Made by a program: the position numbers and the translations under genes
IMG/VR virus record: IMGVR_UViG_3300044971_000890
Span: 1-24,474 of that record
Reading direction: 5' to 3' (one strand)
DNA: 24,474 bases
DNA from: a virus
The notes under the pieces: model-generated
Told to the model about the DNA's origin: nothing
Database searches by the model: none
What the model saw: only the letters and a program-made list of their open reading frames with translations
Part shown: piece after piece, positions 16,588 through 19,720 of the stretch
Layout of the letters: each line of letters starts with the position of its first letter
Numbering within the stretch: the stretch's first letter is position 1

Positions 16588-17574
16588 TTACTTTATGTAG
16601 CTAAATATGTGGGCTATTACATCGACTGTCCAGCCATTTCCAAGCATCTTATACCTTTGAGAATCAGAAACATAAGCCGTATATCCATCTTTAACAGTTT
16701 GAAGCCTTTCACATTCTGTTGGGGTTAGTCTTCTTATTTTATTATAAAATTCAATAGCATTTGTATGACCAGTATCCAAACAATATGTTTTCCCATCATC
16801 TCTTGTTAAATGACCAGTACCACCTTTACCAGATGTGCTTGACCGTGGCATCATATTATGTACAATTATATCTGAATCAGAATTGCTTAAACTTTTAAAA
16901 TGATTTGTTTTAATTGTATTTAAATAGTACTTGTCATCAACTTTAGTTTCCAAAACATCTTTTAACAGTATGCCTTTGTCTTTAGGTTGTTCGATTATGC
17001 TTTGTAAATCTCCAAACAATCCGCCAGGTATCATACCTATATTAGTCCAATAAAGCCTTTGTCTGTTTTGTGCTGATACCAAGCTTGAATTTATCATAAT
17101 AGGATTAACCCCTATAGCTTTGCTTAAAACCTTCTCCCATTTTTCGCCCATCATTACATTTTCAAGTAAAAATAATACATTAGGGTTCTTTTCTCTTAAC
17201 TCATTAAGCAATCGCATATATTCCCAAAACAAATAAGATTGACCTTCAAACTCAAACCCTTCAGCTTTCAATTGCAAATAATGATCAAGTGTTAAAATCT
17301 CTTGTTCATCTTTTGTACTCATCCCTTTACGCTTACCAGCAAATGAGAATGATTGGCAAGGTGAACCACCAATTAATAAATCAATCTTTGGTAAAGCTCT
17401 TCCATCAACATTGACAACCGAACCAAGTTGAAGTGTATTTGGGTAATTTGCCATTGTAACTTGAATAGCATACTTATCAATCTCAGATGCAAAATACTCA
17501 TCCACTTTAATTCCTTGTCGTTGCAAAGCTTGTTGGCCACAAGACATTCCGTCAAATAAACTTAATACTTTCAT
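16588..17574 (-). CDS. dcm: Orphan DNA cytosine-5 methyltransferase (328 aa)
   Basis: Transfers methyl from SAM to cytosine C5. Motif I LSLFDGMSCG (4-13), motif IV GGSPCQSFSFAG (69-80, catalytic C73), motif VI LLENV (136-140), motif VIII QNRQRLYW (169-176), a target-recognition stretch with DKYYLNTIKTNHFKSL, then RRLTPTECERLQT (motif IX) and YKMLGNGWTVDVI (motif X). All core motifs are intact. I chose ATG 17572-17574, which overlaps the upstream stop as ATGA; an in-frame ATG at 17586 would add MFTK. No restriction endonuclease gene is adjacent, so it probably protects phage DNA against host cleavage. The target sequence cannot be read from the protein. Confidence 0.9.
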   Translation of the reverse strand: MKVLSLFDGMSCGQQALQRQGIKVDEYFASEIDKYAIQVTMANYPNTLQLGSVVNVDGRALPKIDLLIGGSPCQSFSFAGKRKGMSTKDEQEILTLDHYLQLKAEGFEFEGQSYLFWEYMRLLNELREKNPNVLFLLENVMMGEKWEKVLSKAIGVNPIMINSSLVSAQNRQRLYWTNIGMIPGGLFGDLQSIIEQPKDKGILLKDVLETKVDDKYYLNTIKTNHFKSLSNSDSDIIVHNMMPRSSTSGKGGTGHLTRDDGKTYCLDTGHTNAIEFYNKIRRLTPTECERLQTVKDGYTAYVSDSQRYKMLGNGWTVDVIAHIFSYIK

Positions 17575-17756
17575 TTTGGTAAACAATCAAATCCTAAACT
17601 TTTAATAACTTCAACTTTTAATACTTTCACTGGTTCTTTAAAATATCTTTTGCGGTTAAAATACCCATCAGTGTGTTTATATACCACATCTTTAACCCAC
17701 TTTGGTCCTTTGTCTGTTTGGACAAGTAGATTAGCTCTGAATATTTCTGTTGGCAT
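17571..17756 (-). CDS. Small basic protein coupled to the methyltransferase (61 aa)
   Basis: No family recognised. Basic beta-rich protein (RANLLVQTDKGPKWVKDVVY, NRKRYFKEPVKVLKVEVIKS) ending FDCLPK. I took the internal ATG at 17754-17756; an upstream start at 17789 would add a hydrophobic MLVYVFIIELV that comes from overlap with the preceding gene. Its TGA overlaps the methyltransferase ATG. It might be a partner or regulator of the enzyme. Confidence 0.5.
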   Translation of the reverse strand: MPTEIFRANLLVQTDKGPKWVKDVVYKHTDGYFNRKRYFKEPVKVLKVEVIKSLGFDCLPK

Positions 17757-18408
17757 AACAAGTTCTATAATGAAGACATACACAAGCAAACATTCTCCAA
17801 TTAATATTTGGCAAGGAGAAGTTGTTAATGAATGTCATAAATGGGTTATTTTTCGTTTGGTCTCTTTTGTACTTATCTTCCAAAGCCAGTTTTAATTCAC
17901 TGATCATAATTTCAAGTACAAACTCTGGGTATTGCATATCATCAAAAGTTCTTATAAACTCATACTTTGAACTAAAGAACATTGGAAACGAATCAAACTT
18001 TTTAGTCTCTTCGTAGTCATACCAAACTTTCCTCATATCTTCATATCCCTGGCGTTCCTCCTCTGGAGTAAGCTTCACAAAGTTTTCAGTCTTTTTTATT
18101 ATTGGCTTTTGGATGTCAATTTCACCAAGCAAACCACTATTGATTGCCTTATAGATAACTGTTGCTACAAATTGAGCGTTTAGTCGTTCTGGCTTCTTTA
18201 CATCAATTATTCCCATTATCCATTTGTCCATAGATTCCTTAATGACATTGATATTGTATTTACCATAGTTTTGTTTGATAAACTCAACAATCTCTGCTGG
18301 GTATTTCGGGATATCAAGGTCGGCTAACATACATACATTTTCGAGTATTTTGCCTATTTCTTTATTTTGTGCGTCTTTTATATACATAGTTTTCAAATTT
18401 AATCCCAT
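17731..18408 (-). CDS. Putative replication partner of the RepO-like protein (225 aa)
   Basis: No firm family. Mostly helical and acidic, with ILENVCMLADLDIPKYPAEI near the N-terminus, YGKYNINVIKESMDKWIMGI at 50-69, and a helical C-terminal part (FVLEIMISELKLALEDKYKR). The last 25 residues are Cys/Arg-rich (CVCLHYRTCYANRNIQS) and overlap the next gene, so they may not matter. Placement directly after a RepO-like initiator, with a 10-base overlap, is the usual position of a helicase loader; no Walker A is visible, so an AAA+ loader is excluded and a non-ATPase accessory is more likely. Confidence 0.55.
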   Translation of the reverse strand: MGLNLKTMYIKDAQNKEIGKILENVCMLADLDIPKYPAEIVEFIKQNYGKYNINVIKESMDKWIMGIIDVKKPERLNAQFVATVIYKAINSGLLGEIDIQKPIIKKTENFVKLTPEEERQGYEDMRKVWYDYEETKKFDSFPMFFSSKYEFIRTFDDMQYPEFVLEIMISELKLALEDKYKRDQTKNNPFMTFINNFSLPNINWRMFACVCLHYRTCYANRNIQS

Positions 18409-19088
18409 TTAATTGATTTTTCTTCCTTTACTTTTATTTCATCTTCCCAACGCTCTTGGTTAAGGTATGTGAGTGGATGTGGTGGCGTATAACTTGCAAA
18501 TGGTTTGTAAGCCAAAAAGCTCGGGAGCGTCGCCGAAATTTTCGCCCTCTGTGATTCCGTTAGTTTTTTGTATTTAGATTCACATCCTTTTTTGTTATTC
18601 TTATTAGGATATAAATTCCAAAAAGATTCAAAAGAAAAACAAGTATTTATATTATCTTTATTTTGTATTTCTTTATTTAGTAACTCTTTACTTTGTTTAT
18701 CTTTACTTTGTAGTTGCAGGTTGGCCGTCGACGGCTTTTCCGTAGATGGTTCAATCGTATATGGGTTATCCAAGTTCGGTATATTCCCTTTTTCCCCATT
18801 GTAAGCAACATCATAAACTATATGGTTATAAGTAAACCTTCCTTTATCATCGTATTGCTTAACTGATAAGATAAATCCTTTGTCCTGAAGCTCTTTAAAA
18901 ACCCTATCAAGCTTTTCCCTTCCCATATTTAATTGAGTATGTAAATAAGATTTTTGAATCACCCAATCATTTGGGAGCTTTAATAGACTTGCCAAAAGTC
19001 CGATGGCTTCAATACTTAACCCAGAGTTAAAAATGTCATTGGGTAATACCGTGTAATTACTGGCGTGTTTTGATTTGATTATTGACAT
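18399..19088 (-). CDS. RepO-like winged-helix replication initiator (229 aa)
   Basis: Residues about 14-75 (VLPNDIFNSGLSIEAIGLLA, LKLPNDWVIQKSYLHTQLNM and DRVFKELQDKGFILS) match the winged-helix domain of phage replication proteins of the lambda O / HTH_36 kind. A long Lys/Ser/Gln linker (120-150) precedes a C-terminal LYPNKNNKKGCESKYKKLTE / YLNQERWED segment, typical of this class and likely to contact the loader or helicase. It should bind the phage origin, often located in or near its own gene. It is directly preceded by the structured RNA leader at 19093-19204, whose U-tract ends 4 bases before its ATG. Confidence 0.75.
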   Translation of the reverse strand: MSIIKSKHASNYTVLPNDIFNSGLSIEAIGLLASLLKLPNDWVIQKSYLHTQLNMGREKLDRVFKELQDKGFILSVKQYDDKGRFTYNHIVYDVAYNGEKGNIPNLDNPYTIEPSTEKPSTANLQLQSKDKQSKELLNKEIQNKDNINTCFSFESFWNLYPNKNNKKGCESKYKKLTESQRAKISATLPSFLAYKPFASYTPPHPLTYLNQERWEDEIKVKEEKSIKWD

Positions 19089-19092
19089 AAAT

Positions 19093-19204
19093 AAAAAAGA
19101 GCATTAGTTTTCTTAGACTTTCGCGTGGGTGTAGTTAAACCCAGTCTAATACTCGCCAATGCTCTATTTAAAATATTATTCATAACTACTTAGGACGCGA
19201 ATCC
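19093..19204 (-). ncRNA. Highly structured leader RNA with interlocking helices and terminator-like 3' end
   Basis: A predicted transcript of about 112 nt between a perfect promoter (-7 box ends at 19210) and the initiator ATG (19088). Complementary blocks, by plus coordinates: P1 19098-19105 with 19158-19165 (8 bp); P2 19113-19119 with 19143-19149 (7 bp); P3 19127-19130 with 19139-19142 (4 bp); Pk1 19120-19126 with 19195-19201 (7 bp); Pk2 19131-19137 with 19183-19189 (7 bp). The last two place the 5' end of the RNA against the bulge and the apical loop of the P2/P3 hairpin, so it can pseudoknot or switch. P1 is followed at once by six U. It could be an attenuator, a ligand- or protein-responsive leader, a free small RNA or an origin. 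No Rfam family was recognised. Confidence 0.65.
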
Positions 19205-19209
19205 TTTTG

Positions 19210-19240
19210 CAAATATAAAGTTTGTTTTGTAATTTCCAAA
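19210..19240 (-). promoter_or_regulatory. Consensus Bacteroidota promoter for the structured RNA and initiator gene
   Basis: Minus strand: -33 TTTG (19237-19240), 19-base spacer, -7 TATATTTG (19210-19217). Exact match to the consensus. Transcription should begin near 19203-19206, so the Pk1 strand (19195-19201) lies almost at the RNA 5' end. Confidence 0.8.
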
Positions 19241-19257
19241 TATTTTTATTACTTTTG
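19226..19257 (+). promoter_or_regulatory. Possible divergent plus-strand promoter
   Basis: Plus strand: TTTG (19226-19229), 20-base spacer, TACTTTTG (19250-19257). It overlaps the minus-strand promoter for the initiator, so the two could compete. It would be the only plus-strand transcription signal in the window. ATTAC-N7-GTAAT (19249-19265) surrounds its -7 box as a possible operator. Confidence 0.4.
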
Positions 19258-19286
19258 CAGTAATTTTTTCATATCTGACAGGATTA

Positions 19287-19306
19287 GGGGGCTATTGCCC
19301 CTTTTT
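19287..19306 (+). terminator. Plus-strand terminator hairpin inside the end of the 142-aa gene
   Basis: Plus strand: GGGGC (19288-19292), loop TATT, GCCCC (19297-19301), then TTTTT. The U-tract is on the plus strand, so it ends rightward transcripts. On the minus strand the hairpin covers the last codons and stop of the 142-aa gene and has no U-tract. Paired with the plus promoter it would define an RNA of about 45 nt. Confidence 0.55.
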
Positions 19307-19720
19307 CTTTAATACAATACTATCTTTATAAGGCACAAATTTAGCTGACATCATTATTTCACCTTCCTCGCTGATCATTCCGTTATTACTCAAAGACAAC
19401 CTATAAGACTGTTTAGCAACATCTTGAATAGCTTTAAGCCTGGCGGATAGTTCAACATACTCTGGAATATGGTCATACTCGTATCTTCCTCCTCCAGTCC
19501 TTACTTCAACCACATAACCATTAAACTCTTGCTTATTATACTGATTAGCAGACTTTAAGAAATCTTCGTTTAAATCGCTTGAAATCTTATCGATGGTATC
19601 TTGTATCTGTTTTAAAGCAATAAGCAGTTCTAAAGGCTCAGAATAGCCTAAATTGACATCATTGTGCATCATCCTCAATTCAGACAATACACTTATAGGG
19701 GATATTTTCTTTTTTAACAT
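19292..19720 (-). CDS. Early helical protein of unknown function (142 aa)
   Basis: No firm family. Helical N-terminal half (ISVLSELRMMHNDVNLGYSE, LLIALKQIQDTIDKISSDLN) followed by a strand-rich part (GYVVEVRTGGGRYEYDHIPE) and a polar tail. The organisation (helical start, then a VEVRTGGGR turn) recalls small recombination/annealing-associated proteins, and it is next to the SSB-like gene (2-base gap), so a role in DNA replication or recombination is likely. Its stop codon lies inside a plus-strand terminator hairpin. Confidence 0.6.
   Translation of the reverse strand: MLKKKISPISVLSELRMMHNDVNLGYSEPLELLIALKQIQDTIDKISSDLNEDFLKSANQYNKQEFNGYVVEVRTGGGRYEYDHIPEYVELSARLKAIQDVAKQSYRLSLSNNGMISEEGEIMMSAKFVPYKDSIVLKKKGQ

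Follow-up and report, generated by a model that had tools for sequence, protein, structure and literature searches.

Results

A structured leader ahead of the replication initiator gene

The window, by which we mean the whole 24,474-nt stretch of virus record IMGVR_UViG_3300044971_000890 that was analysed, carries on its minus strand a gene for a RepO-like, HTH replication initiator (18399-19088; phrog_270, replication initiation protein, E = 4.5e-25), which is the first gene after the leader at 19093-19204 and has its ATG at 19088-19086. A C5 cytosine DNA methyltransferase gene (16588-17586, minus strand; Pfam DNA_methylase, E = 2.7e-39) lies downstream in the replication region. A Bacteroidota-type promoter on the same strand (19210-19240), with TTTG at 19240-19237, a spacer and TATATTTG at 19217-19210, precedes the leader and is strongly conserved among close relatives, supporting the first-pass annotation in its view that the leader would be transcribed into RNA from this promoter. 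On the plus strand, within 19226-19310, a terminator hairpin (19286-19303) lies about 30 nt past a promoter-like TTTG..TACTTTTG, and the two may delimit a very short divergent transcript beside the leader promoter.

The five complementary blocks described in that annotation are found exactly at the positions it gave, and every pairing is perfect. The outer block AGAGCATT (19098-19105) matches AATGCTCT (19158-19165), as read from the sequence; in the minus-strand RNA, to which all further leader features belong, the outer helix P1 joins 19099-19107 with 19156-19164 in 9 bp, one of them G-U. Its 5′ strand GAGCAUUGG (19156-19164) shows a compensatory U-A/A-U change and G-U pairs among homologues, and its 3′ strand CUAAUGCUC (19107-19099) is followed by six U (19098-19093), an intrinsic-terminator-like end with the initiator ATG next, which bears out the terminator anatomy noted earlier. 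Inside P1 lies an internal loop made of AGUA (19150-19153), invariant among close homologues, and GAAAA (19108-19112; AAAAA in contig L320), which we infer to form a bulged-G-like three-dimensional motif. P2 pairs UUAGACU (19143-19149) with AGUCUAA (19113-19119; plus-strand TTAGACT against AGTCTAA, perfect) and has two compensatory pairs, and P3 pairs GGGU (19139-19142) with ACCC (19127-19130; plus-strand GGGT against ACCC, perfect), a helix whose invariance leaves covariation silent either way. The two long-range helices cross this hairpin: bulge A (ACGCGAA, 19120-19126) pairs with arm A′ (UUCGCGU, 19195-19201; plus-strand TTCGCGT against ACGCGAA, perfect), and 19131-19137 of the apical loop (19131-19138) pairs with arm B′ (GUAGUUA, 19183-19189; plus-strand GTAGTTA against TAACTAC, perfect). 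An A/U-rich linker (19165-19182), read from the sequence, spans P1 and P2. The 5′ hairpin region GG-AUUCGCGU-CC (19193-19204) lies near the predicted transcript start; its GG/CC is retained in the four closest leaders and is GGGA/UCUC in L320. The nested part of the window leader folds with z = -2.69, and 2 of 200 shuffles were equally stable.

Close homologues and covariation

The gene upstream of the leader, of 142 amino acids, is common to seven viral contigs, and flanks were compared in six sequences, the window and five contigs. Identity over the upstream 400 nt is 90-94% among the six, and over the downstream 400 nt it is at chance level in every pair except L088/L090. Five of the six leaders are 80-98% identical; that of the remaining sequence, L089 (a contig that also appears as L009), is unrelated to them and carries its own 7-nt arm-loop complement, GGTCAAG/CTTGACC. 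The leader is thus a module independent of the gene that follows, kept while the DNA behind it differs, and this speaks against the RepO-like protein regulating its own gene through it. The boundary at 19093 in the window, and its counterpart in L003, L086, L088, L090 and L089, is a sharp mosaic junction at the leader's U-run: the upstream gene and promoter are conserved, the replication-module genes beyond the U-run are unrelated, and in L089 the leader itself is swapped.

Among the window, L086, L088 and L090 leaders, the differences fall mostly within the two long-range 7-bp pairings, both of which are intact in each. Helix A occurs as UUCGCGU:ACGCGAA, UUGGCGU:ACGCCAA and UUCGCAC:GUGCGAA, with both sides changed at three of seven pairs and 100% pairing in five leaders; helix B reads GUAGUUA:UAACUAC in the window, UCAGUAU:AUACUGA in L086/L088 and UCAAGAU:AUCUUGA in L090. 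Over the whole interlocked structure of the four leaders, 95.7% of cells are paired (88.2% when shuffled) and 8 pairs carry double-sided changes (2.0 when shuffled), even with the window's helix B offset by one base in the alignment and so scored as partly unpaired though its own pairing is perfect. None of 500 shuffles reached any of the covariation measures, and slid registers drop to 34-44% paired. A pattern scan recovered the known leaders and a fifth, L320, in which helix A is identical; in its helix B six of seven pairs hold, one through a compensatory change, and the seventh is mismatched; an out-of-sample prediction of its arm as GCAGTAA was partly borne out (GCAGTTA). With L320 added and the apical-loop helix left out, 98.6% of cells pair. 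The interlocking fold proposed at first pass, a double kissing or pseudoknot arrangement, is thus supported in both of its long-range helices, and the compensatory changes whose absence from homologous leaders would have counted against it are present.

A wider class of kissing leaders

A pattern made of promoter, gap, T6 and ATG, with no demand for complementarity, gave at least 120 matches among viral stretches. Of the 69 unique matches that bear a hairpin, 29 contain an arm-loop complement of 7 nt or longer, compared with about 4 (maximum about 10) when arms were permuted. A second pattern, of promoter, AGTAG, 9-14 nt and CGAA, found 71 stretches, and in 24 of 25 unique T-run leaders among these a complement of at least 6 nt is present, against 2.5 expected and a maximum of 8 in 1000 permutations. 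The outer P2 pair forms in all 29 leaders of this AGTAG subfamily (null 12.0, maximum 20); in all of them a stem brackets the kissing sequence at the 5′ end, and 31-42 nt, most commonly 37, separate the 5′ loop from the internal loop. One hairpin scan was limited to loops of at most 8 nt and therefore cannot report the window's own terminator-like hairpin; hairpin and U-run are present in the class members used.

The class comprises about 70 sequence-diverse leaders, nearly all from phages, and its structure, its location and its standing as a class are well supported. Its members begin with the TATATTTG promoter, a 5′ hairpin with a loop of about 6-8 nt and an A/U-rich linker, and continue with a terminator-like hairpin, a U-run and a replication gene 3-50 nt on. 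The apical loop of the terminator-like hairpin complements the 5′ loop, and the AGUA/GAA internal loop is often present; the AGUAG../CGAA form is seen in many leaders outside the window's family. A typical member is, on this evidence, a predicted kissing pair between the 5′ hairpin loop and the terminator loop, and the window leader is an elaborate version with two predicted contacts. Another subfamily (L125, L138, L153 and L186) has GUGAG-rich kissing loops, and its conserved internal loop is UGAA../GGAU-like rather than AGUA/GAA.

That no described RNA family was recognised at first pass has held up: no family in Rfam 15 matches the window at gathering thresholds, a lax search with the leader gave chance-level matches only, and 14 loci with other class members returned only tRNAs. 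A literature search that took in flavophage papers, with most subscription papers outside its reach, found no description of the class. BLAST of the window leader against 50,697 phage records gave no match, as expected for a sequence-variable class. In a sample of 395 Bacteroidota genomes, taken together with any prophages in them, the promoter-T6-ATG pattern gave 17 matches (6 for the reversed control), none with hairpin and kissing, whereas 20 of 120 viral contigs pass the same strict test. No leader turned up in Riemerella CRP5 or close to six replication genes of Bacteroidales or human-gut phages when these were searched by a simple scan.

An ORF begins 3-37 nt past the U-run in 28 of the 29 AGTAG leaders, and start codons usually lie 3-20 nt from it; in Muminvirus the distance to the ATG reaches about 50 nt. 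Typed downstream proteins are mostly replication initiators (DUF6291, RepO/DnaD-like, DUF1376-like), primase-helicases and helicases, and small or HNH-like genes come after some leaders.

Evolution of the kissing cores

In leader pairs whose scaffolds are 86-98% identical, the kissing cores show either no difference at all or differences at 6-8 positions (3-4 base pairs). Differences affect 6 of 28 kissing and 3 of 83 scaffold positions in L086/L088, 6 of 12 and 5 of 70 in L259/L265, and 6 of 14 and 5 of 64 in L252/L270; these pairs are not independent and the leaders were ascertained by complementarity, so the counts are suggestive only. Core change looks episodic, since some pairs with no kissing difference show at least 10 scaffold changes. 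Such all-or-several-pair differences suggest selection for specificity, and diversification of specificity hints that one RNA molecule recognises another, as happens with plasmid incompatibility RNAs (PMC10724649) and pT181 attenuators (PMC3753616). Pairing that persists through rapid sequence change is what would be expected of an RNA switch that controls phage replication and recognises its own kind.

Discussion

A terminator-like hairpin set between a promoter and a replication gene has the layout of an attenuator, and we give about an even chance to the reading, based on the sequence comparisons, that the leader governs the phage replication operon as a conditional terminator built on kissing loops. 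Transcription would start just ahead of the 5′ hairpin, whose loop (in the window, two 7-nt arms) would base-pair with the U-run hairpin at its apical loop and its bulge, and the pairing state would decide between a stop at the U-run and transcription on into the initiator gene. Termination in vivo, an effect of pairing on readthrough, and recognition of cores between sister transcripts are what this reading leads us to infer. Folding calculations give the terminator-competent state a median advantage of 5 kcal/mol over the nested arm-loop state and put the kissing helix, taken as a free duplex, at about -9 kcal/mol. Since that state is favoured and the geometry of kissing leaves room for P1, the kissing contact does not have to block termination; a leader that terminates by default, its fold stabilised by kissing, is plausible on this model. 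A switch between two states of equal energy is weakened by the same energies.

The proximity of the start codon to the U-run would also suit translational control. L293, L258, L305 and L299 have a further copy of the 5′ loop sequence within a few bases of the initiator ATG, on its upstream side (4 observed against 0.77 expected, with a maximum of 4 in 500 permutations), a recurrence that could reflect a second contact, between the terminator loop and the translation start. The potential pairing in these four leaders, together with cores that are both hypervariable and self-complementary, would also suit a stand-alone small RNA of about 110 nt with its own terminator; it would target, in trans, initiator mRNA from its own phage or from a relative, in the manner of P4 CI RNA or plasmid incompatibility RNAs, with the initiator itself expressed by leakage. 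We regard this as doubtful: general target sites at other gene starts were not significant (7, against a permuted mean of 2.8 and maximum of 9), and strong pairing in cis would hide both loops in the mature RNA. It is unlikely that the leader serves translation or stability, as a compact knot that shields the 5′ end and offers a U-rich start region to the ribosome. The close spacing of U-run and start codon in 28 of 29 leaders and the sequestration of the 5′ end by design would fit, but a hairpin followed at once by T5-T9 is the anatomy of a terminator, the ATG distance is variable and reaches about 50 nt in Muminvirus, and mere protection would not favour hypervariable cores. Lower still we place a put-like nascent RNA that would bind RNA polymerase and bring about readthrough of its own and later terminators; the position right at the start of the replication operon and the conserved scaffold, with its AGUA/GAA loop and narrow spacing, speak for this improbable alternative, with which the leader shares architecture only.

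Inverted repeats adjoining an initiator gene, and able to change in concert, might instead be a DNA-level origin or set of initiator binding sites. We hold this to be very improbable because the repeats fall exactly in hairpin loops between promoter and U-run, P1 and P2 covary with G-U pairs included, and nearly the same leader precedes unrelated genes while a different leader follows the same upstream DNA; the last two observations likewise disfavour an autoregulatory site of the RepO-like protein and the origin recognised by it that the first-pass annotation had listed. An attenuator, a two-state switch and a trans-acting small RNA, also proposed there, stand as candidates. The ribozyme-like fold on the same list gains no support, nor does a metabolite riboswitch, as the long-range pairings are the most variable part, and the AGUA/GAA loop alone recurs, not in all subfamilies, where an invariant aptamer or catalytic core would be expected. 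A 34-codon open frame MNNILNRALASIRLGLTTPTRKSKKTNALFYLCQ (19181-19077, minus strand) passes through every helix of the main hairpin and shares sequence with the RepO start. Read by eye, this frame is open in the window, L086, L088 and L090, but an ATG ORF spans the hairpin in only 2 of the 29 AGTAG leaders and variation is concentrated at compensating loop positions, which makes a coding function scarcely credible.

The conditional-terminator reading has precedents in plasmids. Native rep control in pT181 depends on an antisense RNA from the opposite strand as pairing partner. The pT181-type rep-leader attenuator is a conditional terminator with loop-loop RNA recognition (PMC3753616), and the window likewise has a leader with terminator anatomy, judged from its sequence, ahead of a replication initiator gene. 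Unlike pT181, both partners lie in the sense leader: a consensus scan of the window found no opposite-strand promoter reading into the leader, and the sole nearby plus-strand TTTG..TAnnTTTG match (19226-19257) faces away from it. In the RNAI/rep leaders of the I-complex (IncI/IncK/IncB), kissing loops precede rep and a few loop changes alter incompatibility (PMC10724649). Permutation and covariation point to similar loop kissing in our leaders, whereas the I-complex has an antisense RNA and translational control and belongs to enterobacterial plasmids. The complementary loops of about 7 nt in ColE1 RNAI/RNAII resemble those of the window leader in length, but ColE1 uses two opposite-strand RNAs and controls a primer rather than an initiator gene. 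The phage P4 CI immunity RNA arises in a sense leader whose internally complementary blocks control termination before replication genes; the window leader shares such blocks and position, but P4 has an unlike architecture and needs processed CI RNA. HK022 put RNAs are, like the window leader, structured RNAs at the 5′ end of phage operons, and to our knowledge have no terminal U-run or kissing loops. The class likely resembles the known rep-leader RNA controls in function and, with both partners on the sense strand, belongs to none of them.

Recognition between sister transcripts through the variable cores would give dosage control and insulation from related phages. As a tentative extension, possible rather than probable, the class may constitute an antisense-free sensor of genome dosage widespread in flavobacterial phages: every leader would hold a hypervariable lock together with the key that fits it, and readthrough into the replication operon would be set by terminated and nascent copies of one and the same leader acting on each other. 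If so, co-infecting relatives would diversify their cores as plasmids diversify incompatibility groups. The leaders add an apparently undescribed, widespread class of structured RNA at the entry of the replication operon of flavobacterial phages, and cores that are hypervariable yet always complementary make a direct prediction of RNA-level compatibility between phages, a property known for plasmids and here, for phages, a prediction only. The class also offers natural orthogonal kissing-loop parts and includes cultured isolates, so that it is testable at once.

The leader is carried by the window phage and many relatives infecting Flavobacteriia-type bacteria, including the isolates Flavobacterium 11b, Cellulophaga phi13:2, Muminvirus, Lillamyvirus, elemo, Danklef and Harreka; it precedes the replication module in Danklef_1, Harreka_1, elemoA/C, tooticki, filifjonk, hemulen, stinky, phi13:2 and 11b. 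A simple scan of the 29 AGTAG leaders found no upstream terminator isolating the operon. A terminator-like hairpin does sit upstream of the Muminvirus and Lillamyvirus leaders, which makes it appear that the operon is entered there by way of the promoter and the leader terminator. Flavobacterium LMO phages are described as virulent and Danklef encodes an integrase, and the element is therefore not confined to temperate phages.
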